Source: Bolinopsis microptera (taxonomy: Eukaryota > Ctenophora > Tentaculata > Lobata > Bolinopsidae). From it: 64,000 bases of DNA. The notes under the pieces are model-generated. The model was not told the origin of the DNA and made no database searches. It saw only the letters and a list, made by a program, of their open reading frames with translations. Below are positions 42,120 to 63,594 of this stretch, one piece after another (within the stretch, counting starts at the first letter, position 1; every line of letters begins with the position of its first letter). The DNA lies in NCBI RefSeq assembly GCF_026151205.1, contig NC_087080.1, forward strand, positions 4,753,096 to 4,817,095, written 5' to 3'. The position numbers and the translations under genes were made by a program.

Positions 42120-42300
42120 AGGATACAATTCTCCTTAAATCATTCTAGATTGATCTTTTAATTATCTAAACTATAGGAGTTCTTAACATCCACTGGTAGG
42201 GCATTCCAATAAGGTATTCCTCTCTCATAATAAAAAAGCTTTACACTTTGCACTTTATCTAAACAATATTTATGCAGTTAACTGTTTGATCTTAACCACC
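42120..42300 (-). pseudogene. LINE ORF2 C-terminal tail fragment
   Basis: A minus-strand frame reads KLFYYERGIPYWNALPVDVK followed by stops. This is the same LINE tail motif (WN.LP.DVK) as at 23832-24215, here broken and truncated. Confidence 0.65.
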
Positions 42301-42305
42301 ATATA

Positions 42306-43216
42306 ATGGGCCAGTATTGGGTTGATGAGCCTCAAAGTGATGCCCAGTCTACCCTCATCACAGTAGTTCATTTTTGGGCCATCAGTATTGGTGACGTGAG
42401 AAAAGTCAGCTTCAGGCCTATTCATAGTGTAGTAGACACTTCCGACCATCCTAGTTGTCTTAATCCAGCCTCAAACTCCGTATACATCATGACACGGTCC
42501 TCCCAGGCATGGTATCAGCATAGTATAGGATCAGGAGACTCAGTTCCACCATCCAGTCAGCTCCCTGTGCAAACAGGCCGGTATTCCATCACACTCAGAA
42601 CCATAAGCAAGCAGTTCAAACGTAGCACTGTGATACTTGGAGACTCAAACACAAAGAACATCAAGTTTGGGTCTGGAACAGGTACTATGGGTCAATCCTT
42701 CCCTGGTATGCGAGCCAAAGCTAGCAAGATCAGCAACATTGACCCGTCACTGTGCATAGGATACAGCAATGCTGTTATTGTGTGTGGGACGAATGATCTC
42801 CGGACTGAGAACTTGAAATCTCCCAACGATGTTCATCAACTCGTGGATATTCTCCACTTGAAGCTACAACAGATCCAGACTATATGCCCTCGTATTAAGA
42901 TATTTGTTACCGCTGTGTTGCCTTCGCGATTTCCCCGCATGAACATGAACATCATCATGTTCAACAGACTTGTCTAGATGATATGCTTGAGTCAAGCTTC
43001 GAGCAAAGCGTGTGGCAGATCGGTGTCTATCACTTCGTTGATAACAAAGGTCTGCTTGCCATGAACTTGACCAGAGATGGGGATGAGATACATCTTGGCA
43101 ACCGCGGTCTATCTAAGTTTGTGAGATGTGTTAAACATTGGGTGTATGTGCGTGAGAAACTTGAGAGAACTAGACAGAGGAAACCTGGTCAGACAGTGGG
43201 ATATGATCCCACTTGA
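42306..43216 (+). pseudogene. LINE ORF1, 5'-truncated: AlkB-like C-terminal half plus SGNH hydrolase-like domain
   Basis: The frame opens inside an AlkB-like domain; the HxD part appears lost. It keeps VYIMTRSSQAWYQH (H72) and GRYSITLR (R92 and R98, the R-x5-R signature). An SGNH-like domain follows, with the Ser-containing block ILGDSNT (~112-115) and VIVCGTND. A frameshift near 42975 (two extra bases) breaks the frame; the second part, 42983-43216, carries the final block with DGDEIHLGNRG. ORF1's stop overlaps the start region of ORF2 at 43213-43222. Family knowledge: SGNH esterase domains occur in ORF1 of CR1-type LINEs. The AlkB part is the novelty here. Confidence 0.78.
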
Positions 43217-46200
43217 TCAAAATGAACTTGAAAATCAATAAGGAGGTGTGCTATCCGTGCAGTAAGTCGATTAATATTGGGCAACCTATGCTTGAATGTG
43301 AAGACTGCACCAAAGTTATCCATACTAGATGTTTTAAATCTGCTAGTTTTAAGTGCAAGAATGGCCTATGGATGTGCCCAGAATGTGCACTTATCACAGA
43401 GGATAGATACTGCCCCTTTGACAATCAAAACGATCTCGAAAAGTCGGACAGGCCCTACAATGAGGGTGCAGAAGACACCCTCATCCAAAAATTTTGTCAT
43501 ACCCTCGAGAGCTGTAAACGTTATTCCAAACGTGAATTCACAGAAGTAGCTACAAAAATCAGCAGTGGTGATGGGTCCTTCCTCTCAGCACTGTTCCTCA
43601 ACATTGATGGCAATGCCAGTAATTTCGATACATTCCAAGTTGAACTCAAACGGTTATCTCATCCATTTGATGTTCTTGGACTTGCTGAAACCAACGTTGG
43701 TAGTAGCTTACAAGAATTATACCAGATCCCATCTTACACCAGTTTTTATCAAAATACCCTCCCAGATAAGAAAAAGGGCACTGGGGTTGCGCTTTATGTC
43801 TCAGACAACCTTAACACGGTTGTCCTAGAAAAGTTATCCTACTGTACTGTAAACATTGAATGCTTATTCGCCGAAATCACTGATAGCACTGGTGTTGGGG
43901 TTGTCTACGGAGTTGTATACCGTCCCCCTAGTGGCTGCCTTGAGGCTTTTTGTGAAATTTTACAAACCATTGCTAAGCAGATATCCGGCAAGCCCTTTCG
44001 TTTGCTTGGCGACTTTAACTCAGACCTCTTCAAAGTTTCGTCACACAACCAGTTATTTGAAGACACTATAATTAGTAATGGTTTGTATCCATCCATCTCA
44101 ATTGCTACCCACTTCCGGCCTAACTGTAAAAACTCGTGTATAGATAACATCCTAGTTAGTGATATTGATAATGTTTTGCTCTCTGGTGTACTTCAGGATA
44201 GATTAAGTGAACACACGTTCATATTCTCCTTCACCTCAACCCCGGCCCCAAGAAATAAGAACAATGAAAAACATGTCCGCTACTACGACTACTCAAGTGC
44301 CAAGCTTAAAAATTTTGTTTCTGACCTTGAGGTGAAGGTGAATCAGCTGTCCCAATCTTCAGATTTTTGCGAATTTGTCGATTGCTTCACATCCACCCTT
44401 GACAAGCACTGTAAATTAGAAGTACCGAAAACGACCAAAAGAACACCAAAGCTTAATCCTTGGATTACAGATGGAATCATCCTCTCAATCGACAGAAAAC
44501 ATGAGCTTTGTAAAGAATGGTCAGATACAGTAACAAATAAAGATCCATCTGGCAATGTCCTTCTTTATAAGATATTTAGTGACTATCGTAGGATGCTTAA
44601 GGGTATCATAAAGGCAGCCAAACGCTCCTATTACTGTAACGAAATCTATAAAAACATTGAAAGCAGTAAGAAAACTTGGCAGATAATAAATGAGCTTAGG
44701 GGCAAAAGAAAGAAAACAACCAAACCACCTTTTATCATCAATAATGAAAGAATCTTGAACCGGAGAGCAATTGCCAATGGTTTTAATTCCTGGTTCGTAT
44801 CAATCGCTCCCAAGCTCAATGAAACTATCACAACTGACTTGTCTTCTGGTATTCCAATTCTCCCCATGAAAACATTCCATGACTTTCTTAGCCCTAGTAA
44901 CTCTCGATCTATTATGTTAGAGGACAGCACTCCTGAGGAGGTTCTAAGAATAATCAAAGAATTCGAGAATGGAAAGGCCAGTGATATTCCCATAACCGTT
45001 ATTAAAACTTCGTCCCACGTTATTGCACCAATTATCAGCAGATACTTAAACAAACTTATGTCAAATGGTATATTCCCTGATATACTTAAGACTGGCAGAA
45101 TCACACCCGTCTTCAAAAAAGGTAATCCAGAAGAAATAGAAAACTACCGTCCTATATCCACCTTGTCCATATTTGGCAAAATATTTGAGAAAATCATATA
45201 TTCTAGGATTTATTCGTTTGTCAGCTCTCAGGGAATAATATCTAAGACTCAGTTTGGTTTCAGGCAATCGCACTTAACCTCCCATGCAGTAAACTACTCT
45301 GTTGACCTCATATCTAAGCACATCAAATTGAAGCACCATGTGTTAGGCATATTCATCGACCTCAGCAAAGCTTTCGATACTATAGATCACTCAACATTAC
45401 TTACCAAACTAGAAAGGTATGGCATCCGTGGCGTGGCAAACGATCTGATCAAGAGCTACCTAACTAATCGATTCCAGTACACTGATGTTGTAGGAGAAAA
45501 GTCCGACCTACTTCCAATAAAATTTGGGGTTCCCCAGGGGTCAATTCTCGGACCCCTTTTATTCCTACTTTACATAAATGATATCTCTAATAGCTCTAGC
45601 TTGGGATCGTTTGTCACCTTTGCGGATGACACCAACATATTTGTTGTTGGTAAAACTGCACAAGAAGCATATGAACGCAGCAACGCCCTACTTTCAAACC
45701 TTCAAACATACATGCGGGCTAACAAGCTTCACATAAACATGTCAAAATGCTGCTACATTCACTTTAGACCTAAGTCACGTACTGAAGCAAACGTTGAAGA
45801 AGAATTCATAATGAATATAGACAACTACCCCATCAAAAGAGTAACGTCAGCTAGATTTTTAGGAGTCGTCATTGACGAAAATCTAACATGGGAAGAACAT
45901 ATAATAGCCCTAAAACGAAAGCTTAACCATGCCACCTCAACTCTGTGTCGTCTACGCTGCTCCCTCCCAGAATTTCTCCACAGACAGTTATACTGCACTC
46001 TTTTTGAATCCCATCTGTCGTTCTGCATATCAGCATGGGGTGGGGCAGCTAAAAATCGTATAAGCTCAATATTCACTGCACAGAAGTACTGTCTGAGGGT
46101 CTTGTTTGGTGATAGAGCAGCCTACCTGGATAAATTCAAAACGTGTGTTCGAACCAGACCATTTACTGACCAGAAACTTGATAGTAAATTTTATAAAAAG

Positions 46201-46668
46201 GAGCACACTAAACCTCTGTTTAAAAACAACGAGATACTCACTGTACAAAATCTTTATACTTACCATAGCTACATAGAATTATTCAAGATCATGAAGTTTT
46301 CTACTCCTATGTCTATGTACGAAGAGTATTCTCGTTCTTCCAGGAAACCAATGCTTATTATCAATAAACCGGATCCCCCAGACAACCATAACACGAGGTC
46401 AACGAAAATATGGAATATAATAACCCCTAACCTTAAAATCTTTGATTGTTCTGTTAGTATTTCTTGCCTGAAATCCAAACTGAAATCTTCACTACTTTCC
46501 AACCAGCATTGTCATGCCGTGTATGACTGGACAAATAAAGACTTTGATATTTGTAACCTTAAATTTTCGAAGGCTCCTGCAGGGATTCCACCTGACCTCC
46601 AAAATTTCATGACCAAATCGACTTACTCTGCCAGTGTATTCCTCTGTCAAGTTAAATGTGATGTGTGA
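43213..46668 (+). CDS. LINE ORF2: PHD finger, apurinic-type endonuclease, reverse transcriptase
   Basis: About 1148 intact residues from the ATG at 43222. The N-terminal PHD-type zinc finger runs CYPCSKSINIG, CEDCTKVIHTRC, CPEC. The endonuclease has LNIDGNASNFD, LAETNVG (catalytic Glu), VVYRPPSG, LGDFNSD and SCIDNIL, then SEHTFIF. The reverse transcriptase has NYRPISTLSIFGKI, GFRQSHLTSHA, FIDLSKAFDTIDH, GVPQGSILGPLLF and the catalytic box FADDTNIF, then FLGVVIDENLTWEEHI. No stop or frameshift, so it may still be active or recently was. It copies element RNA by target-primed reverse transcription. An N-terminal PHD in ORF2 is unusual relative to L1. Confidence 0.93.
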   Translation: MIKMNLKINKEVCYPCSKSINIGQPMLECEDCTKVIHTRCFKSASFKCKNGLWMCPECALITEDRYCPFDNQNDLEKSDRPYNEGAEDTLIQKFCHTLESCKRYSKREFTEVATKISSGDGSFLSALFLNIDGNASNFDTFQVELKRLSHPFDVLGLAETNVGSSLQELYQIPSYTSFYQNTLPDKKKGTGVALYVSDNLNTVVLEKLSYCTVNIECLFAEITDSTGVGVVYGVVYRPPSGCLEAFCEILQTIAKQISGKPFRLLGDFNSDLFKVSSHNQLFEDTIISNGLYPSISIATHFRPNCKNSCIDNILVSDIDNVLLSGVLQDRLSEHTFIFSFTSTPAPRNKNNEKHVRYYDYSSAKLKNFVSDLEVKVNQLSQSSDFCEFVDCFTSTLDKHCKLEVPKTTKRTPKLNPWITDGIILSIDRKHELCKEWSDTVTNKDPSGNVLLYKIFSDYRRMLKGIIKAAKRSYYCNEIYKNIESSKKTWQIINELRGKRKKTTKPPFIINNERILNRRAIANGFNSWFVSIAPKLNETITTDLSSGIPILPMKTFHDFLSPSNSRSIMLEDSTPEEVLRIIKEFENGKASDIPITVIKTSSHVIAPIISRYLNKLMSNGIFPDILKTGRITPVFKKGNPEEIENYRPISTLSIFGKIFEKIIYSRIYSFVSSQGIISKTQFGFRQSHLTSHAVNYSVDLISKHIKLKHHVLGIFIDLSKAFDTIDHSTLLTKLERYGIRGVANDLIKSYLTNRFQYTDVVGEKSDLLPIKFGVPQGSILGPLLFLLYINDISNSSSLGSFVTFADDTNIFVVGKTAQEAYERSNALLSNLQTYMRANKLHINMSKCCYIHFRPKSRTEANVEEEFIMNIDNYPIKRVTSARFLGVVIDENLTWEEHIIALKRKLNHATSTLCRLRCSLPEFLHRQLYCTLFESHLSFCISAWGGAAKNRISSIFTAQKYCLRVLFGDRAAYLDKFKTCVRTRPFTDQKLDSKFYKKEHTKPLFKNNEILTVQNLYTYHSYIELFKIMKFSTPMSMYEEYSRSSRKPMLIINKPDPPDNHNTRSTKIWNIITPNLKIFDCSVSISCLKSKLKSSLLSNQHCHAVYDWTNKDFDICNLKFSKAPAGIPPDLQNFMTKSTYSASVFLCQVKCDV

Positions 46669-51794: not shown

Positions 51795-53588
51795 TCAATA
51801 CTCTTTTAAAGGTAGTGCTGTTAACCAAGCACTTGCCCCTTTCTCAGCCGCTAGTTGGAACATCAACTTTGCTAGTGGTGTTGACTCGAGCTCCTGGCGT
51901 ATTTCTGCTTGTTTTTGTCGATAAAAGAGATTTCGTTCAGTCGTTATCTCAGTTTTCACTCCTTTACTGTGTCTCCAGTCCTCTGTGTAGTTGTCTATCT
52001 GCTTGAGAATAGCTTCTTTAAGGGGTTTTGTGGCTCTACATGAGAAATTGTACTCTCGGTCTGCCATTTCCATCATAACTGGTATACCCAATCCTCCATA
52101 TCTTGGTGGTAGAGCCATTATGTTCCTTAGTTCATCAGTGCAGCTAAACAGCCTGTTAATGATAGCTGGGATAAACTCATCACGTGTTACTTGTTCTAGA
52201 GGAGTGAGCCTATCTGCAACTCCTGGGGTAGTTCTGCACACATAGTTCCATCTTTTACTAAGCCCATACATGTATGCACTGTATGCTATTTGAGGTTCTC
52301 TTGATGCTATATCACTTAACTGTTTAAGATCACGACACCATTCTTGAACTTTTTCCTCAATGAAAGCCTCTTTTCCTTGGTCTGTTCCGATGAAGCTGCC
52401 CAGATATCGTCGACCAATGCTTGTCACATTGACATCTGGGAATAGGGATCTTGCCTTCTCTTCGTGCTCAGGCTTGACTATCACCCATGTTTTAGAAGAT
52501 TTAGGGTTGTATCCAAAGAGTGGTCCTTTAATACAGAGGTTATCCCACCACTTCCTTATTTCTTCCAGTTTTCCCCCAGCAGCAGAGTCATCAGCATACC
52601 AGATCTGAGTCACCTTTCTCTCAATGTTTCCTGCATCAATCAATGGTATTGTACCACAGGCATAAAATCCCATGGCAGGTGGATCACCTTGTGTGGTCCC
52701 TTCTTCACTAAAAAGATGCTCATCTCCTCCTGCAATGAACAGTCTAGCAGGCATTCTGTAGGTGTTCATAATGTAAGTAGCAACTTCTGGACAAACGATA
52801 TTCATGTTGTTGAGAGCAGCCTCTCGGTTCAGCAAGTTGAATGCATTCTCTGCATCCACTAAGATGATAGCTTCAGTTTCAGGGTCTTCAAAGCAGTCCC
52901 TTGCAGCATGGACTGCTGCTTCCACTCCTCCCTGAAGACCAGCACAAACTTGAATAGGAGCAGTGGCTCCAACCAGATCTTTCTGTAGGAGGGTCATTAC
53001 TGTTTTCCCTATTATCCTTCTTAAGACTTCACCTATACCTACTGGCCTGACTCCAGGCTTTTTATCCAGGGGGACAAGTCGACATGCTGTCAATGAGGTC
53101 AACAGCGTTGGATCCAAATTCCAGACACATAGTTTCCTTGCTATCCCTGCTATGGCATTACATAGATCCTCACACTTCTTACCAAACTGTTTAGAACACA
53201 GTAGTCTCTTCCATGCATCCGCATCCATCCCTGAAGGCCCTGCAGCACCCTGTACTCTCTTTGCTGCTTGTCTTATCGATTCCCCGTCAATACTGTCGAA
53301 TATAACCGGCTCTACCCTCCTCGCTGGTCCACTCAGACAGCTTCCCTTTGATGCAGGTGATGCCTTGGGATGCTTCTCTTTCAGCACTTTAATCACATCT
53401 GGAGTAGGTTCAAGAATCCCGGTGGCATTTTCACCAATCCACCGCATTGCTGCACTGACTTTTCCTTTCATCATGAGTCGAGTGAAGACTCTCTCAACAT
53501 GGCCATGTTTATGCTTCCCCTTTCCCAATCTCCTCTGAATCTCCTGTTCTTCTCGCAGCAGCTCTTCTAGCTTACCTGCCTGCCACAA
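51795..53588 (-). CDS. REL retrotransposon reverse transcriptase
   Basis: 597 residues. The reverse transcriptase contains GPSGMDADAW, LVPLDKKPGVRPVGIGEVLR, QVCAGLQGGVEAAVHAAR, LVDAENAFNLLNR (catalytic Asp), EGTTQGDPPAMGFYACG and the catalytic box WYADDSAAGG, followed by a thumb region with GLSKRWNYVCRTTP. The blocks match an R2-related family I know from cnidarian and sponge genomes. The first residue is a TTG codon continuing from upstream sequence (LKRRLV-LWQAGKLEELL) across the 53603-53725 insertion. Confidence 0.88.
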   Translation of the reverse strand: MWQAGKLEELLREEQEIQRRLGKGKHKHGHVERVFTRLMMKGKVSAAMRWIGENATGILEPTPDVIKVLKEKHPKASPASKGSCLSGPARRVEPVIFDSIDGESIRQAAKRVQGAAGPSGMDADAWKRLLCSKQFGKKCEDLCNAIAGIARKLCVWNLDPTLLTSLTACRLVPLDKKPGVRPVGIGEVLRRIIGKTVMTLLQKDLVGATAPIQVCAGLQGGVEAAVHAARDCFEDPETEAIILVDAENAFNLLNREAALNNMNIVCPEVATYIMNTYRMPARLFIAGGDEHLFSEEGTTQGDPPAMGFYACGTIPLIDAGNIERKVTQIWYADDSAAGGKLEEIRKWWDNLCIKGPLFGYNPKSSKTWVIVKPEHEEKARSLFPDVNVTSIGRRYLGSFIGTDQGKEAFIEEKVQEWCRDLKQLSDIASREPQIAYSAYMYGLSKRWNYVCRTTPGVADRLTPLEQVTRDEFIPAIINRLFSCTDELRNIMALPPRYGGLGIPVMMEMADREYNFSCRATKPLKEAILKQIDNYTEDWRHSKGVKTEITTERNLFYRQKQAEIRQELESTPLAKLMFQLAAEKGASAWLTALPLKEY

Positions 53589-53602
53589 AACAAGTCTTCT
53601 CT

Positions 53603-53725
53603 GATTGACATGTTAGAACAGACTATTACACATAATATAGCAATGACCCTATATAAAAATTCTTTAAAAATAGTACAAATTTTAAAAACTGAGGTAAAAA
53701 TAAAAACCCTTTGCAATAATATATA
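53603..53725 (-). mobile_element. 123-bp insertion with 13-bp target duplication inside REL element
   Basis: The 13-mer acaagtcttctct flanks the insert (53590-53602 and 53726-53738). Part of the insert (acacataatatagcaatgac and following cctatataaaa) also occurs at 47909-47940 in the 3' UTR of the REL element, in the same orientation. It is best read as a severely 5'-truncated copy of a related element's 3' end. Confidence 0.8.
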
Positions 53726-54000: not shown

Positions 54001-54322
54001 CTCCTATTAAAAAATTTTTGATTTTGGTAAATGTGTGCTGACTCCACCACCTATGTATTTAACCTAATATTTAGTGTATTACAGGTAGACATTGACTTAG
54101 GTAGGTATTTTTCTCTTAAGGTAGATATTAAGAATTTGGTAAATTTCTTAATTGTATGACTATTTTTTTAATACTTTCGGCGCTGCTATATAACAAATAA
54201 TTTGAGTTCAGGGATAGAATGATTTAACGCCCCCAAAGGGGAGTTCGTAAGTTTTCTTGTTGATTTATTGCTGCGATTCTTGTGTCTTTGCTGTCCGACT
54301 CACTTGAAGATCTTATCTCATC
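54001..54322. other. Spacer; probable 5' UTR of the next element
   Basis: No gene seen. It lies between the start of the minus-strand REL element and the plus-strand ORF1 that begins at 54323, so it may contain one or both promoters. Confidence 0.4.
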
Positions 54323-56180
54323 ATGTCAGGTCAAAAGACTGCTGGCATCAAACCCCCTGGTAACAGGCGGAATTCAGGCGCAAACACCCCTACAGACACA
54401 AAAGACAGGAAAACAGCCAAGAAGTCATCTCTGAAAAAGGACGTAGATGTGCTGCAGACTGCCTTAAATGTGATTCCAGCTGGAGATACTCCTGCCCTGC
54501 TCACCAACCACAGAGACCTAGAACAATGCCCTTGTGGCAATTCTTCGGATTCATGGAAGATTGACTGTTCAAAATGTCACCAGTTCTGGCATGTGGATTG
54601 TCTAAGCATGAAGGGCATGGGACAGTCCCAAATCAACAAACTGGTAATATCTATGCCCATTCTGCTATGTAGCACCAATCCCAACCATAAATCATGACCT
54701 CGACCTCTGCCATGTCTGTAGAAACACACTCACGATCCAGCAAGCCAACAGTGTTCATGAAATAGGAATAGCAAGTGAGAAGCTGGAACAAATGGCATCA
54801 TTTGGTGACCTGCTCAACAAAGTGAACTTTGACAACCTCAAAGATGGACTATTGGCCATACAGAACCTCGAGCTACATGTTCAACATATATTAATCAGTG
54901 AGGAAGGTCTGAAGCATCACCAAAACAAAGTGAGTAAGATAGAGGAACATATGAGTGAAATTGCTAAGAAAAAAGCATCAGAGGATGGTTCAATCACTGA
55001 CATGGTAAAACAGACACATCAGTTGGTTGAACAACTCCAGAAGATCAGTGATAAGCCGGAGGTTACATCTCACAAGAACGAGGAGCTAATGAAAAGGATC
55101 GAAGACAAGCTCCAGGCACTAACCGAAAGTGAGACAACTTTCCAGACCCAACTTAACAGTTTAGGTAGTCAAATACAGGATCTTAAAGCATCTCCTCAAT
55201 CCAGAGCACCACCTGTGGCTGAGAAACACTCTCCTCCACCACATACTTTCTTACAACCTGACCAGCCTACCCCTCATATAGCACATGACCAGGTGCCTGT
55301 AACGGAAATCAAGCCAGATTTCATTCTGACAACTGAATCTGATAAAATTACTGCCTTTCTTCAGTCATGTTCCTTCGAATCAGAGAACGGTCACTCTGTC
55401 ATTTCATTTGGCAATCCCTACCACTACACTGGTTCTAAATCTTCAAAAAATGTTCCACCGATTCCTGAGGAACTTAAACCATTATTTGATGAAATGAACA
55501 AAGTACAAACTGAGCTGTACAATAAGTGCTACCCGGAGCAGCCCCACCTGACGGCCCCAGTTATTAACTCATGTCTCATCAACAGATATGATGGCCCTGA
55601 TAGTCACCTACCTAATCATTCAGACCGTGAAGTGACCATCCATCCGGAATCCTCAATTTTTACTTTGTCTCTCGGCCAGAGTTGTAACATCAAGTTCACT
55701 GAATGTGACTCTGGAACTGAATCTTCTTATGAATGTTTAGACCGCTCCTTGTACATAATGAGCCGTAGATCACAAGAAGTTTACAGCCATATGATTGAGC
55801 GTGGCTCAATATCAGATGGCATTAGATACTCGCTGACCTTTCGTGCTGTTAGCTGGACTAATAAAAATTGCACAAGTTTACATGGTGATTCAAACACAGG
55901 CCTCTTGCGTTTTGGGTCTGACAAGAGGGGTACCTTTGGCGAGCTCATGCCAGGTCAAAAATTCTGGGCTCCCAGAATAGATGATATCAACCCTGTGTCC
56001 TGCATGGGTTACGCCAATGTAGTGCTCCACTGTGGGATCAATGACGTGAGACAGCCTGATGTTAAATCTGAGAATGATATTGCTGATTGCTACAATAAAC
56101 TGAAGCTGAAAATAAAACAAATTAGGAGAGTTAGAATTAACCCAAATATCAGGGACACGAATGACTACTCCAGGATTTAA
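54323..56180 (+). pseudogene. LINE ORF1 copy: PHD finger, coiled coil, AlkB-like dioxygenase, SGNH start (one frameshift, 3'-truncated)
   Basis: The first frame (54323-54697) gives a basic leader and a PHD start (CPCGNSSDSW, CSKCHQFWHVDC). A one-base shift near 54645 moves into the second frame, which gives CPFCYV and CHVC, then the ATG at 54792. In the 462-residue second part: coiled coil ~35-135; Pro/His linker ~135-170; AlkB-like domain ~185-355 with NRY (264-266), HSD (H276, D278), H333 and RYSLTFR (R345, R351); SGNH block HGDSNTG at ~364 and CGINDVR. It ends abruptly in unrelated residues at 56180. Same family as the ORF1 at 42306. The Fe(II) triad and the two arginines are intact. Confidence 0.85.
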
Positions 56181-56345
56181 GAAACTAAACTTTCAACACT
56201 GAAAACATTCAGATTCTTGCCAAATATATTTCGATTGTAGTCATCTCCAGTGACATTGAACCTAAAAAATGTTAAAAGGTTAGTGAAACTCACACAGTTA
56301 CAAAATCAAGAATCCGAAAAAGGTAAAAAGATCATATTAAGGTGA

Positions 56346-57599
56346 ATGAATATATCTGTAACTTGTTCCCCATCACCAGTGAAACCAGTTACCCTACTAG
56401 ATGATGGTCCATTCTCTAAATTTTCACTTGATCTATTAATGGAAGAACTTGAGTTCAGTCACGGTTTTAAAAACAGGAAATCGGTTTATTTTTGTGACTT
56501 TCCCTATGAGTATTCAGGTGCAACACATGACCCAAAAAGTGTACACAATGATTCCTACCTTGCTAAACTCAGCTCCTACATTAATGTGATATTACCCAAT
56601 TTCAGACACAATAGTATTCTCGTCAATCTATATGAAACTGGAGCAGAGTTCATGCCAGCTCATAGCGATTCTGAATCATGTATTGTAGAACACTCTGATA
56701 TTGTAACCATTTCACTTGGTGCGACGAGAACACTGCAAATTAGATCAAACGGCAGCAATGAAGTTGTGGGCTCTGTGCAGCTTCAGCATGGAGATGTCTT
56801 CATCATGTCCAAATTGTCTCAGGCTGACTTTCAACATGAGATACTGCCAGACGAAATGTGTGATGAACCCCGGATCAGCATCACCCTAAGACTGATGAAG
56901 CCCCCTAGGATCACTCAGTCAACTGAGTTTGGTCTGCGTTCACCGCCCCCACCCATCCCTCATTCAGGACACAAACTGACAGACTCTTCTTCACCTGCAC
57001 TCTCAGTTTGCAAACAGCCAGCCAAAGCTTCACAAAAGTCTGTCCTATTCATAAGCAGCTCTATGTTCAGGTTTCTTGATGCAGACAAGTTATCATCGTC
57101 CACTGTTAGTGCTAGTAAACTGTTTTATCCTGGGGCTGATGCCAAAGTAATGTTAAATAAACTAAAAACTGACCTACACTCCGTTCCATCCCCATCTATT
57201 ATTTATATTATGACAGGAACTAATAATGTGAACACAGTCTATTTTGGCTCAAAGTCACTGAAGGATGCAGCGGGTGACATTAGTAATCTCTTAAATTATC
57301 TCAAGTCAGTGTATCCGAATGCAACAATTAATGTTCTCAATATTCTTCCCAGGAGTACAAAAGGCCGCAATGATGTTGTGGCAGAGCTGAATAAGGTTAT
57401 TAAGGATATGTGTAGCAAAGATTCTTGTTTTAATTACATTAGCACCCATAATTTATTTAACTATAATAGAAGTGGATTCAGGAAAGAATTTTATTTTGCC
57501 AGACCATCTGCAAAAATATCTGATAACTGTCACCTCAATACAAGCGGTGTTATTCGACTTGCTAAATTTCTGAAGTATTGGGCCCATAAGCAAGTTTGA
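56346..57599 (+). CDS. LINE C ORF1: AlkB-like Fe(II)/2OG dioxygenase plus SGNH hydrolase-like domain
   Basis: 417 residues, intact. The AlkB-like domain (~20-185) has NLY (94-96), HSD (H106, D108; Fe ligands), TISLGATRTLQIRS, LQHGDVFIMSKLSQADFQH (H164, third Fe ligand) and PRISITLR (R176, R182; 2-oxoglutarate-binding R-x5-R). Order and spacing match the ALKBH2/3 and bacterial AlkB family, which oxidatively demethylate 1-methyladenine and 3-methylcytosine in DNA or RNA. After a Pro-rich linker comes an SGNH-like domain (~232-410): VLFISSSMFRFLD in the Ser block, IMTGTNNVN in the Asn block and SDNCHLNTSG for Asp/His. Next downstream is ORF2. The protein probably packages the element's RNA; the demethylase role is inference. 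Confidence 0.88.
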   Translation: MNISVTCSPSPVKPVTLLDDGPFSKFSLDLLMEELEFSHGFKNRKSVYFCDFPYEYSGATHDPKSVHNDSYLAKLSSYINVILPNFRHNSILVNLYETGAEFMPAHSDSESCIVEHSDIVTISLGATRTLQIRSNGSNEVVGSVQLQHGDVFIMSKLSQADFQHEILPDEMCDEPRISITLRLMKPPRITQSTEFGLRSPPPPIPHSGHKLTDSSSPALSVCKQPAKASQKSVLFISSSMFRFLDADKLSSSTVSASKLFYPGADAKVMLNKLKTDLHSVPSPSIIYIMTGTNNVNTVYFGSKSLKDAAGDISNLLNYLKSVYPNATINVLNILPRSTKGRNDVVAELNKVIKDMCSKDSCFNYISTHNLFNYNRSGFRKEFYFARPSAKISDNCHLNTSGVIRLAKFLKYWAHKQV

Positions 57600-57842
57600 A
57601 TTTTCAGAAAGATTGTTAACATTTATTTCATCTAGATTCTAGATAAGGGATAATTACACATTGTTCCTCATGTTTATTGAAGTTTTAGAAAGTTTTGTTA
57701 TTATCTCATACAAATTTGCCAGTTCTGCAATTTATCTTATTCTGACAAGTTTATAGCAGCATAAATTGGAAAAATTTTCATGCTCTCACAGCAGTTCTTG
57801 CATTAACCCGTGCATTAGTAAAATCACAGTTTCATACCATGC

Positions 57843-60782
57843 CAAAAAGCTTGCAGTGGGACATTGCAACATGCAGGGAGGACTAACAGGTATGCCAAAA
57901 TGTCTTGAAATCCAAGATCTAATCTGGAAAGAGAAATTAGATGTTTTATGCCTGAATGAAACAAATCTTAAGTCGGATATTGACTCAGCCAGTCTAAACC
58001 CAAGAATTTTACTTTTATCCGCAAAGACCGTCCTAACGACAATGGTCATGGGGGATGTGGCATTCTCATCAGTGAGCACATAAAGTTTAAAATGATTCAA
58101 CTAAACTTAGTTTTGCAATATGACCAAATCGAGGCTATTTGGATCCATCTTACAGATTGCAATATTTTCATCTGCTGTTTCTACAGATCTGAGTTGTTTA
58201 GTCCTCTTGACAAATTTTTAGATTATATGACAGACTGCATGATGAGTATAGGAAGTAAGAATGTTATTTGGCTGGGTGATGTAAATGTAGACCAAAACAA
58301 CATCAGCAGTATGAACTATAAGAAATTAGACATTACAATGAAAATGTTTGGAATGGTACAGGTAGTTCAGGATATTACCCGCATTGCTAAACTAGGAAAC
58401 AGAATCACAAAGACCACAATCGATGTTGTCATAACAAACACTTACTCCAAGTTTCTTGACTGCAAAGTCCTTGATGATTGTATAGGAGATCATCAGGTCG
58501 TAAAGTTCATTGTCGATTTCAATGTGCATAAGGCCTCAAAATTCAAGAAGTTACTAATAAGAGATCACAGCACAATGAATGTTACTGCTCTTAAAGAATT
58601 TTTGGAAACCTGTGATTATAGACCAATAATAGATTCAACTAGTCTGAATGATGCAGTTGATGGTTTAAACGAACATATTGATCACTACTATGATCACTTC
58701 TGTCCAATTAAACAAATTAAGTGCCATAGTGATTACATCCATAAGCCATCTCCAGAATTTTTAGAAAGTAAGAAATTGAAAGGGAAACTTTACCGTAAAT
58801 TTTTAACACACAACAAGAACAGACGCATACATCCAAATGGTCTTATACACTGTAATAAATGTGACTCATTATGGATGGCATATAAACGGCAGAGAAACTA
58901 TTCAACCTATTTGTCTAGAATTAATAGGAAGACTAACTTAGCAACAGAACTGAAAGCCAAGTGTGCCATGAATGATCTAAAGGGTGTATGGAAAACGATA
59001 AAGACAGCATCAAATCTGCCTGTTAAAGCTAACAATATCAATAACAATCTTGATGCTGAAACCACCAATAAATATTTTGCTGAAATAGGTCCAAAGATCC
59101 AAGCAGAAGTGCAGCTGGAAAATGAAAATGAATTTCTATCTTATCTACAAAATGAGCAGATTGACAACGAGACCAGCTTGAATAGCTTTACTGAAATAAC
59201 TGAGTCCAATATCTTAGACTATGTGGCAAGTATCCCTTGTAGCAAATCCACTAATGATCATATACCATTGAGAGTGTTTAGACAAATTTTACCTGCATTT
59301 ATTGCTCCATTAACACATCTTGTAAATTTGAGTTTATCCAGTGGCATCATGCCAAACAGCTGCAAGGTTGCAAAAATCACCCCAATCCATAAGGATGGTG
59401 ATACTGAGAATCCTAGTAATTATCGACCAATCTCAATTTTACCGATTCTTGGAAAGTGCATCGAATTTTGTGTGAACTCCCAACTGACTCAATATCTTGA
59501 TGAAAAGGGAATACTTTCAGAGCATCAATATGGTTTCCGTAAAGATCACTCTACAACTTATCTCATGTTAGATCTGTTTGATCGTATATTTACTGCTAAG
59601 AACAGTGCCAAGCATCCTGCAATTATCTTCCTGGACATCAGAAAGGCATTTGATACTGTTAACCATGATATTCTCATTCAAAAGCTGAAGCATTATGGAA
59701 TAAAAGATACTGCATTGAGCTGGTTTAGGAGCTTCCTCACAGATAGATTACAGCAAACTAGAGTTGGGAGTAGGATAAGCAGTTTACATTCATTGAACTC
59801 TGGAGTGCCTCAAGGAAGTATATTAGGACCAATTCTATTCAGCATTTTTATCAATGACCTGCCTAATGCATGCCTATTTTCTAAACCTTATCTATTTGCT
59901 GATGACGGTGCATTATATTTTGACAATATATCTAGAGGAAACTATGGTAACATCAAACAAGAGTTGAAATTAGTTATCAGATGGCTTCAGGCTAATAAAC
60001 TATCCCTGAATAATGAAAAAACAAAACTAATGATCCTTGACTCTAAGCCTAACCTTGATGCCATCCTTGTTGAAATTTGTGATGACCTTACTTTGGTAAT
60101 CTGTGAAACTAAATCCCATAAGTACCTTGGACTTATAGTTGACAGCAGATTGACATTTAATGAACATATTGATAACATTAAGAAAAAGATATCCAAAAGA
60201 ATTGGTGCTATGTATAGATCAAAAAAACTTCTCCCTCTTAAGTTCAGGAAGATGTTTGCTAATGCACTTATGTTGCCACATTTTGACTACTTAGACACCA
60301 TCTGGTTAAGAACATATAAAAAACGACTAGGAGAGTTAGATATCATGTACAAAAAGGTTGCTAAAATAGCCCTAGATGTAAACATCAGAGAGAGGTCGGT
60401 TAATGTATACAAAAATATGGGATGGCTTCCTCTCCATTTGAGACGACAGGTTCATCTTAGCTCATATATGTACCGTATAATCAATGAAACATGTCCAAAG
60501 CATTTTATCGGGAAATTCTCGTATATTTCTGGTGGATCACGTGAGGCAGAAAACTGCAATCTTTATACTCCTAAATCAAGATCTCACAAGGAGTTTAACT
60601 ATCTAGGAACTAAGGCCTGGAACATATTACCAAAGTCCCTTAGAGAGTGTGACGACGTTAAGAAATTTTCTAAGTTATACAAAGAAACTCTTATGAATAT
60701 GTTGCTAACTGATGAGAATTACCAAGGGGATAACTCTTACGATAAATTCATGATCCCACCCAACACTAGCCAATGTATCTAG
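57843..60782 (+). CDS. LINE C ORF2: endonuclease and reverse transcriptase (one frameshift)
   Basis: The first part (57766-58083) has VGHCNMQGGLTG and CLNETNLKSD (catalytic Glu). A one-base shift near 58000-58010 moves into the frame with GGCGILISEH, continuing as the 896-residue ORF from 58092. The endonuclease continues LGDVNVDQNN, TIDVVITN and GDHQVVKF. Reverse transcriptase: NYRPISILPILGKC, YGFRKDHSTTYL, FLDIRKAFDTVNH, SGVPQGSILGPILF, catalytic FADDGALYF, then KYLGLIVDSRLTFNEHI. A C-terminal region KAWNILPKSLRE follows. There is no PHD finger, unlike element A. The single frameshift means this copy needs a ribosomal shift or is dead. Confidence 0.88.
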
Positions 60783-61374
60783 GCAGTTATGTTATTTCGG
60801 TTAAGTTATCTCAGTACATAAGTGAATCCAATCTATCCCCTGCAATCAAAGTATTTCCATGCCTATTAAGCTATTACAGGAAATTAGGAACATCAGTGGA
60901 AAGGTGCACTGTCAATCATTATTGCTCCATACCTCCAGTCCTCCTGTTATGTGCAATTCTCACTGTATGCTCCTCATTTGTATCAATTATATTGATGCTA
61001 CATTGTTATTGAATATGAAATAATTTTCAACCGTATTAATTTATTAACTTATTGTAAATAGCAAGTTTGACAAAGGGATTACGTTTATTTTACCCGGAGT
61101 TCGTTTAAGTTTAGTATTGTAAATAGTTAATTTGACGAAGGGAATACGTCTATTTTACCCTGAGTTATGTTTTAGTTCAATCTTGACACAATTTTAAAAT
61201 TATAATTTAATTATTTTATATATATGTATTGTCCATAACTAGGGTGGCCTGCTAACAGAACCATGATCTGCCTTGATTCATCCTTCAGCACAGAGAAAAG
61301 CTCCTTTTTTTATACATTATGATTACAGAGGATCTGATATTTAGATATATATTGCTGTGCTGTAAAAATTGACT
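60783..61374 (+). other. 3' UTR of LINE C
   Basis: AT-rich, with two imperfect copies of a roughly 65-bp segment (61055-61165) and no coding signal. Confidence 0.5.
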
Positions 61375-61404
61375 TTATTTATTTATTTATTTATTTATTT
61401 ATTT
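61375..61404. repeat. (atttattt)n tract
   Basis: A pure attt tetramer run of about seven units at the junction between the LINE C 3' UTR and the Penelope fragment; probably the LINE 3' tail. Confidence 0.88.
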
Positions 61405-61825
61405 TATGGAATATAGGTAATCCAAAGGGATTGACAGTATTAAGGCCAAAAGGTCTAAGAGAATTAAGCAAATGTATGTAGTTATTTTCTTTTACTTCAA
61501 GTGTACTGGGACTGCAATTCTCTAAAATAAAAGTTCTAAAAGTTTCATTAAAATCTGTATGTACTCCTAAACCGTGGTCAATCAAGTGAACCCCTAGGCT
61601 ATACTCATCACTAGTAATATCAAATGCTCTACCATCAACGATTTCATAAAATTTGGACCTGTGTCCGTCCATCCTTTTATGCAAGCTATTAATAGTCCTA
61701 CCCACATAGTTTTTCTTACAAATCGAACACTGTACAAGATAGATGATGTTATAGGTCTTGCAACAACCAGGGGCTGATTTGATCTTTTTGCGGGGCAGAC
61801 AGAAGGGGCAGACAGAAGACATCAC
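61391..61825 (-). pseudogene. Penelope-like element, GIY-YIG endonuclease fragment
   Basis: 144 residues: a CPFC cluster, IIYLVQCSICKKNYVGRTIN (the GIY-YIG core), HKRMDGHRS (catalytic Arg region), HLIDHGL, FRTFILEN and LEVKENNYIHLLNSLRPFGL (Glu plus the typical end GLN). This is the C-terminal endonuclease domain of Penelope-like retroelements. The reverse transcriptase that should precede it is absent, so it is a remnant, opposite in orientation to the neighbouring LINEs. Confidence 0.88.
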
Positions 61826-61911
61826 ATCGGCAAAGTTAATGGACGGCTATACAGCAACGTGGCTAGTGACCCGCCTGCACCCCAGCGGATGGGGAGGAAC
61901 GGTTAACAGGT

Positions 61912-63594
61912 ATGGTTAATCGTGTTCAAAAGGAAATTTGTTATCACTGTCTGAAGAATATTGGTCTGGGGCTTCCCCACTTTGAATGCTTTAACTGCAA
62001 CAGTATTTTCCATGCCAAATGTTTTAATCCCTCCAAAGCACAAGTTATTAATGACAACTTTTACTGCATCAAATGTAAACATTCTATATCTAAAAAATAT
62101 AATCCTTTTAAAGTAATGACCGATCCTGAAGTTAATGACTGTGACCCATATCTCCAAAAGATGTCTGATGTTTTGGAAAACTGTAGATCCTATACAATTA
62201 AGGACTTTAACACACATATCAAACCGTGTTTTGCAAGCAACTGCTCCATGATTTTCCAGAACATAGATGGCAATAAAACAAATTTTGATGCCTTTAGCAT
62301 GGAACTAGACCTAATAGCCGAAAAATTTAAAATTATTGGACTTGCTGAAACCAATATTGGAATAGAGGAAAGCACTGTTTACCATCTAGAGGGATACAAT
62401 TGTTTCTACCAAGATAAACATATCAATAAAGCGAAGGGAAGTGGAGTAGCATTGTACTTAAAGGACGAACTTAATGGAGTTGTAAACGAAGAATTATCAT
62501 GGGTAACCAAAAATCTTGAAACTCTATTTATTACCATTCAACATGATGAACCTCTACATGTAGGAGTTCTGTACCGTCCTCCTAGTGGGAACGCCTCAGA
62601 GGCACTAAATGAACTTAGAAAAATGATTGAATCATGCTCAAAAAAGAATGTTTACATACTAGGAGACTTCAACATTAATCTCCATGATGAAAACAGTAAA
62701 CTCGTTCAAGACTTTGAAAACCTTATTCTAGGCCTAGGTTTATCACCACTTATTTCTACGTCTACGCATCATAAACCAGGATGTAACCAATCATGCATTG
62801 ACAACATACTCACCACCAACATCGAAAACTCTATCTGCTCTGGAACGATTAGTACCTGCATCAGTCACCATCATGCTGTATTTAACATATTCAACTCACC
62901 CCTAGTCAGTGCTGAGGATCATGAACAAAAGCACTTCCAGTACTATGACTACTGTGCAACTAATGTGAACAAATTTGTCGAAGTACTAGACAATGAATTA
63001 ACAAGTGATCCACAAGAAGATTTCAGTACTTTTTTCACTCTATTCAATCATCAACTAGTGTGGAATCTACCAGCAGAGCACGGAAACTGGAGGACTATTA
63101 AGAAGATAGAAGATGTTCAGAGAGAATTTACACGAATAATCGACGGGATTGGTATCCTACCATACGACGAGAGACTGAGAATCCTCCAGTTAACAACACT
63201 ACTGGAGCGCCGTATGAGGGGTGATCTTATTGAAACCTTTAAAATAACGACGGGTAAAGTGGACTATGGACAAGATCTTTTCAGGATATCACGTAGTGGT
63301 ACCAAGATCCTAAAAGATAAAAGAGGAAATCAGGTCCTCAGTAACCGTGTTGCCAATTACTGGAACAAAGTACCAAGTTCGGTTAAAGAAGCCAGTTCAG
63401 TAGACGCATTCAAAGCTCGACTTCAATGTTATAAAAATGAACTGATAGCGAGTGGAGCATCGTCAAAGGGTCACTTCTGGGATCTCAGCGAAACCTTGAT
63501 GTCAAAAATAAATACATGTGAGCATGATTCATATGCATATTTCATGTCTAATAACCCATTGATTGCTAAATACCGAGGAATCAATGTATCTTGA
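61912..63594 (+). CDS. Chimeric LINE ORF: PHD finger, endonuclease and RT C-terminal tail, reverse transcriptase missing
   Basis: 560 residues, uninterrupted. PHD-type finger CYHCLKNIGLG, CFNCNSIFHAKC, CIKC. Complete endonuclease: FQNIDGNKTNFD, LAETNIG, VLYRPPSGN, LGDFNINL, SCIDNIL and SHHHAVF. Near residue 375 it jumps, in frame, from the post-endonuclease linker (FSTFFTLFNHQL) directly into a LINE tail: VWNLPAEHGNWRTIKKIEDV, QREFTRIIDGIG, ERRMRGDLIETFKI and YWNKVPSSVKEA. The whole RT catalytic core is gone. The tail resembles other LINE families more than elements A or B. It may be a deletion or template-switch product. Whether it is expressed is unknown. Confidence 0.85.
   Translation: MVNRVQKEICYHCLKNIGLGLPHFECFNCNSIFHAKCFNPSKAQVINDNFYCIKCKHSISKKYNPFKVMTDPEVNDCDPYLQKMSDVLENCRSYTIKDFNTHIKPCFASNCSMIFQNIDGNKTNFDAFSMELDLIAEKFKIIGLAETNIGIEESTVYHLEGYNCFYQDKHINKAKGSGVALYLKDELNGVVNEELSWVTKNLETLFITIQHDEPLHVGVLYRPPSGNASEALNELRKMIESCSKKNVYILGDFNINLHDENSKLVQDFENLILGLGLSPLISTSTHHKPGCNQSCIDNILTTNIENSICSGTISTCISHHHAVFNIFNSPLVSAEDHEQKHFQYYDYCATNVNKFVEVLDNELTSDPQEDFSTFFTLFNHQLVWNLPAEHGNWRTIKKIEDVQREFTRIIDGIGILPYDERLRILQLTTLLERRMRGDLIETFKITTGKVDYGQDLFRISRSGTKILKDKRGNQVLSNRVANYWNKVPSSVKEASSVDAFKARLQCYKNELIASGASSKGHFWDLSETLMSKINTCEHDSYAYFMSNNPLIAKYRGINVS

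Follow-up and report, generated by a model that had tools for sequence, protein, structure and literature searches.

Does a long interspersed nuclear element (LINE) of the ctenophore Bolinopsis microptera encode in its first open reading frame (ORF1) an AlkB-type dioxygenase, an enzyme of the kind that clears single-stranded DNA or RNA of harmful methyl groups, and if so, what could the element use it for? The question arises from 64,000 nucleotides of contig NC_087080.1, hereafter the window (G000:C9:4753096-4817095), in which an original prediction made from the letters alone had described an ORF at 56346..57599 that joins an AlkB-like domain to an SGNH hydrolase. We assign this ORF to a LINE family designated family A, whose copy in the window comprises the following features.

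56346..57599, + strand: 5'-truncated ORF1 of LINE family A, with an AlkB domain, a linker and an SGNH domain
56376..56903, + strand: AlkB domain of this ORF1 (about residues 11-186), with H106, D108, E110 (the H+4 position), H164, R176 and R182
57030..57596, + strand: SGNH domain of this ORF1 (about residues 229-417), with S239, G263, N293, D393 and H396
57757..60782, + strand: family A ORF2, with an endonuclease (EN; in two frames in this copy) and a reverse transcriptase (RT; RVT_1, E 5.5e-37) with FADD
61374..61401, + strand: (TTTA)n tail at the 3' terminus of the family A element, whose copies end at about 61393-61407

The AlkB domain was detected twice, by profile search and by fold comparison, the latter recovering the double-stranded beta-helix fold of AlkB, and this combined evidence rules out a chance match. 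Alignment placed H-x-D, the distal H and R-x5-R in the window ORF1, with N-x-Y ahead of H-x-D, in the family order that had been read from the sequence, and the motif HxDxE, H, Rx5R is kept in 286 of 290 distinct relatives among the matches listed. The N of N-x-Y is found in only 36 of the 119 aligned rows of clade A (Y in 114) and in all 120 rows of clade B (Y in 106). The SGNH-like domain described after AlkB was also confirmed: in clade A its catalytic positions are invariant (S239 in 120/120 rows; G263, N293, D393 and H396 in 119/119), and the family A profile matches the structure of the zebrafish ZfL2-1 esterase (PDB 4c1b, E 5.1e-5); its Pfam GDSL score is below the cut-off. Block I reads SSS in clade A, which lacks GDS and retains the catalytic serine; clade B retains GDS.

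Family A, a young LINE

A search of the genome (264.65 Mb in 232 contigs, with C1-C13 of 15-26 Mb each) with the ORF1 DNA gave 41 matches, 28 of which, the window's own included, span all 1254 bases at 99-100% identity. These matches, together with EN-RT behind other copies, rule out a host gene that happens to lie beside a LINE. We analysed 20 of the other 27 full-length matches as copies: 15 match the window element in one piece (5,056-5,071 bases, 99.15-99.76% identity), the alignments of L009, L024, L025 and L027 are broken into two pieces, and that of L021 covers only 2,451 bases. Upstream of the window ORF, 18 of 19 copies match copy L018 for 810-864 bases (L019 for 122), which rules out position 56346 as the start of ORF1; because the copies stay alike over this distance, the full element measures about 5.9 kb. 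ORF1 (624 amino acids) is open in 17 of the 20 copies and the ORF2 frame (1,003-1,010 codons) in 16, with both open in 14, and the protein database contains 11 other ORF1s of 552 amino acids that are 99.1-100% identical to P0261. Family A is young.

The same-strand EN-RT ORF noted behind the AlkB-SGNH ORF in the original prediction was seen in the window, in other copies and in other families, and the further LINE features found are many copies, 5' truncation and a repeat tail. No convincing target site duplications were found around the copies examined or the window copy; there is an 8-base repeat at 56335/61438, but it is not adjacent to the (TTTA)n tail. Judged by SGNH and PHD domains only, membership of the CR1/L2 group is suggested. 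The ORF2 frame of the family A copies has its earliest ATG 38 codons in, within the endonuclease motif NMQG (57757-57871); translation of ORF2 may therefore be coupled or begin at a codon other than ATG.

Affinity, conservation and selection of the AlkB domain

The clade A profile ranked ALKBH3 first (E 2.4e-26), followed by ALKBH2 (2.9e-25), Escherichia coli AlkB (2.3e-6) and ALKBH5 (0.0077); FTO gave no match to it up to E 0.01, a result uninformative by itself. With the clade B profile ALKBH2 came first (E 1.6e-7), and the best fold match was DNA-bound ALKBH2, with ALKBH3 nearly as close. The H+4 residue is Glu in 119/119 rows of clade A and 120/120 rows of clade B, as in ALKBH3 and ALKBH2; the corresponding residue of E. 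coli AlkB, D135, contacts the methylated base. By its nearest profiles, its fold and this acid, the domain is of ALKBH2/ALKBH3 type. One study used AlkB for 1-methyladenosine (m1A) and 3-methylcytosine (m3C), and AlkB(D135S) for 1-methylguanosine (PMC8053708). An unrooted tree of 25 rows (21 LINE AlkBs, the host-like genes L001-L003 of the same genome and a Helitron) placed the 21 LINE AlkBs on one side of a branch with support 88/78 (not starred), and the LINE and Helitron AlkBs were split from the host-like genes by a 98/93 branch; the Helitron row is long and its placement unsure. Host ALKBH2 and ALKBH3 share the fold, the ligands and the H+4 acid with the LINE domain.

All six ligand and acid positions of AlkB are conserved in 119/119 rows of clade A. 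Clade B shows the same conservation, in its SGNH positions as well, apart from a single Gln in place of the first Arg; the median AlkB identity among relatives is 0.41 (A) and 0.50 (B). For six pairs of copies, one per family among all pairs computed, the pooled ratio of non-synonymous to synonymous substitution rates (dN/dS) in AlkB was 0.183 (37.5 synonymous and 24.5 non-synonymous changes, P 5.7e-11). In the same pairs it was 0.171 after AlkB, in the SGNH part, and 0.581 before AlkB (P 0.061); single-pair AlkB values, where defined above zero, ran from 0.05 to 1.26. The catalytic residues are under selection. Neither outcome named as refuting the original prediction, a lack of AlkB matches by profile or structure or neutral evolution of these residues, was seen, and its interpretation is supported.

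Relatives and proposed role

A genome search with the AlkB profile PF13532 gave at least 150 places (150 scored of 587 candidates), a number that includes host-like genes and Helitrons and is not a count of LINEs. We read 20 further AlkB-SGNH stretches and, for five of these families, the DNA downstream. Same-strand EN-RT matching the window ORF2s followed in four of the five, at E 0 in L051, L053 and L054 and with an RT match of 8.7e-142 in L050, where EN lies in a separate frame stretch. An EN-RT directly downstream in all five is ruled out by L052, which has PHD and EN but lacks an RT over the 4 kb of downstream DNA that were read; its PHD-EN ORF2 passes without a frame change into another AlkB-SGNH stretch (L052:759-3767), as if one element had landed inside another with the frame kept. 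The 18 distinct relatives with a named organism among the matches listed (6 among 120 of 258 hits of one search, 9 among 120 of 177 of a second and 3 more among all 66 of a third) are all from the ctenophore Mnemiopsis leidyi, and scans of the viral_contigs and genome_contigs collections gave no relatives.

AlkB also occurs in Helitrons. The overlapping places L005/L049 (G000:C12:2468080-2477500) form one frame of 2,459 codons with SGNH, AlkB (E 2.1e-22), Helitron_like_N (2.6e-22) and PIF1 (9.1e-21), the SGNH match (E 4.2e-7, 31.1 bits) falling under its cut-off of 32.9. The order in this single Helitron read is SGNH-AlkB, in contrast to AlkB-SGNH in the LINEs. A genome search with Helitron_like_N gave 41 matches; at six AlkB places frame length and strand equal those of a Rep domain that follows 3.6-4.5 kb downstream, one of these places having been read, and two more have a Rep domain no more than 5 kb away on their strand. 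The Helitron cycle involves DNA only. The presence of AlkB there suggests a single-stranded intermediate as the common need, and we put forward, tentatively and with considerable doubt, that in this genome an AlkB-SGNH eraser module common to LINEs and Helitrons moved between these two unrelated classes, its lesion reversal protecting such an intermediate.

The nearest known design is the esterase (type IV) ORF1 of CR1/L2 elements such as zebrafish ZfL2-1, which shares the C-terminal SGNH domain, the N-terminal zinc-finger/coiled-coil part and an EN-RT ORF2; here, however, AlkB is inserted between the N-terminal part and SGNH. The sections available to us of a survey of LINE ORF1s list five types, esterase and PHD included, with no AlkB or other oxygenase, and give the esterase type in vertebrate groups only (PMC4120745). 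No AlkB-carrying LINE was found in the open-access literature searched, and subscription papers or Repbase Reports, outside that search, may describe one. On these two grounds, what is new is an enzymatic AlkB domain added to an otherwise known, esterase-type ORF1. A Ty3/gypsy element of the orchid Phalaenopsis likewise carries an AlkB dioxygenase, with activity shown in vitro (PMC9289625), but it is a plant long terminal repeat element with AlkB in a separate ORF and akin to m6A (N6-methyladenosine) demethylases, whereas in family A the domain lies in a LINE ORF1, is fused to SGNH and is close to ALKBH2/3. Plant RNA viruses (vitiviruses, closteroviruses and others; the viral library matches to AlkB include Grapevine virus T) also have the AlkB fold in a protein of an RNA-copied element, but in replicases, without reverse transcription and without SGNH.

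With moderate confidence, we propose that family A ORF1 represents an ALKBH2/ALKBH3-type Fe(II)/2-oxoglutarate dioxygenase captured by a LINE and joined to the SGNH esterase of other LINE ORF1s, and that it acts on the element's own RNA or complementary DNA (cDNA). The ORF1 protein would bind RNA made from the element, perhaps along with the first strand of cDNA, and its AlkB domain would oxidatively strip methyl groups of the m1A and m3C type from the Watson-Crick face of bases. Reverse transcriptases stall at such methyl groups, a problem that sequencing work relieves by treatment with AlkB (PMC8053708); their removal might thus let a template of about 6 kb be copied in target-primed reverse transcription. 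Because a LINE copies about 6 kb in one go, lesions would weigh more on it than on a host messenger RNA. The SGNH domain may act as proposed for the zebrafish L2 ORF1 esterase, in lipid or membrane association; hydrolysis and phospholipid binding have been shown for that protein (PMC3905857). If the enzyme does act on nucleic acid of the element itself, damage or marking by base methylation would be a real barrier to retrotransposition, enough for elements to carry erasers; AlkB LINEs would be a concrete case for testing limits on LINE copying, and Helitrons with AlkB raise the question whether such protection is needed by single-stranded intermediates in general.

Several observations weigh against this proposal. 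Folds like ALKBH2/3 act on DNA too, and Pfam profile scans found no RRM in the ORF1s scanned and no Pfam RNA-binding domain in ORF1. The motif is incomplete in four of the 290 listed relatives (P0031, P0032, P0190 and P0247), and AlkB dN/dS reached 0.79 (L040/L043, 7 changes) and 1.26 (L042/L043, 10 changes) within a family, with all copies used for dN/dS taken from the AlkB matches of highest score, a choice biased towards intact ones. In addition, the distinct codon changes among 19 family A copies (frame-shifted L025 left out) comprise 17 that are synonymous and 17 that are not, the pattern expected of dead copies.

Other explanations are less likely. The enzyme might be directed at DNA, acting during integration on the nicked target, single-stranded cDNA or chromosomal DNA as ALKBH2 does at replication forks, and the DNA-bound ALKBH2 that gave the best fold match, the occurrence of AlkB in Helitrons, and a PHD-like finger in family B ORF1 (below) that is near those of BPTF, DIDO1 and CFP1 and compatible with chromatin targeting would all agree with this; however, the fold cannot separate a DNA from an RNA substrate, ALKBH3 being nearly as close, and if the substrate were cDNA the two explanations may overlap. 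We regard repair of DNA as unlikely. Rather improbable, too, is epitranscriptomic evasion, in which host-written m6A or m1A would be erased from the element RNA so that it escapes silencing or destruction by host readers. This was the weaker half of the role first proposed, since profile and fold favour ALKBH2/ALKBH3 and ALKBH5 matches the family profile weakly, at E 0.0077; the H+4 acid is that of ALKBH2 and ALKBH3, and ALKBH5 and FTO are not known to have one. On the other side, RNA binding and in vitro m6A demethylation have been described for the orchid Ty3/gypsy AlkB (PMC9289625), and m6A writers and erasers influence L1 RNA (PMC7873242).

The missing RRM would also fit an AlkB that serves only as a non-catalytic nucleic-acid-binding fold, filling the place that an RRM has in other ORF1s, but the iron and 2-oxoglutarate ligands persist in nearly all relatives at the median identities given above, and we think this very improbable. 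No likelier is a two-eraser module in which SGNH and AlkB work together on a single substrate, whether nucleic acid or host protein, and free it of acyl as well as methyl marks. The pairing of both domains in LINEs and in the one Helitron read, and the low dN/dS of the SGNH part, are in its favour, yet no common substrate is known and the zebrafish L2 esterase binds lipids, with no oligo-A RNA binding and no histone deacetylation in the results available to us (PMC3905857).

Other LINE copies in the window

Around the family A copy, the window holds parts of two further AlkB-SGNH families, B and C.

54311..54694, + strand: PHD-like finger, the start of family B ORF1, in its own frame
54648..56096, + strand: family B ORF1, with a coiled coil, AlkB (PF13532 E 3.7e-16; about 55311-55847) and the start of SGNH with GDS
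61805..61903, + strand: C-terminal tail of an ORF1 of family B, with 85% identity to the final 33 residues of P0121
61870..63594, + strand: family B ORF2 remnant, with a PHD-like finger and endonuclease
42270..43216, + strand: 5'-truncated family C ORF1 divided between two frames, with the C-terminal part of AlkB and a GDS-bearing SGNH
43222..46668, + strand: family C ORF2, with a PHD-like finger, endonuclease and reverse transcriptase in a single open frame

The AlkB and SGNH domains of families A and B are homologous and in identical order (hhalign probability 99.9, E 8.9e-33). The likeness of family B ORF1 to relatives such as P0121 ends near 56096, and the central RT was not found in the ORF2 remnant at 61870..63594. 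Between the family A tail and this remnant lies a cysteine-rich frame on the reverse strand (61391-61846), GIY-YIG-like in appearance. It is likely that the family A copy and the piece with this frame were inserted into a family B copy whose other end is 61805..61903; about 110 codons between the two ORF1 parts were not found, so that a single split copy is likely and not proven. The family B PHD-like finger (54311-54694) is nearest to those of CFP1, DIDO1 and BPTF (E 0.0025-0.0092), which are readers of H3K4 methylation. In family C the ORF2 ATG (43222) lies 6 bases beyond the end of the ORF1 stop (43216). Two RT frames are on the reverse strand: the RT of the frame at 48914-51457 matches family A ORF2, and the frame at 51795-53612 has a weak RVT_1 match (E 0.014).
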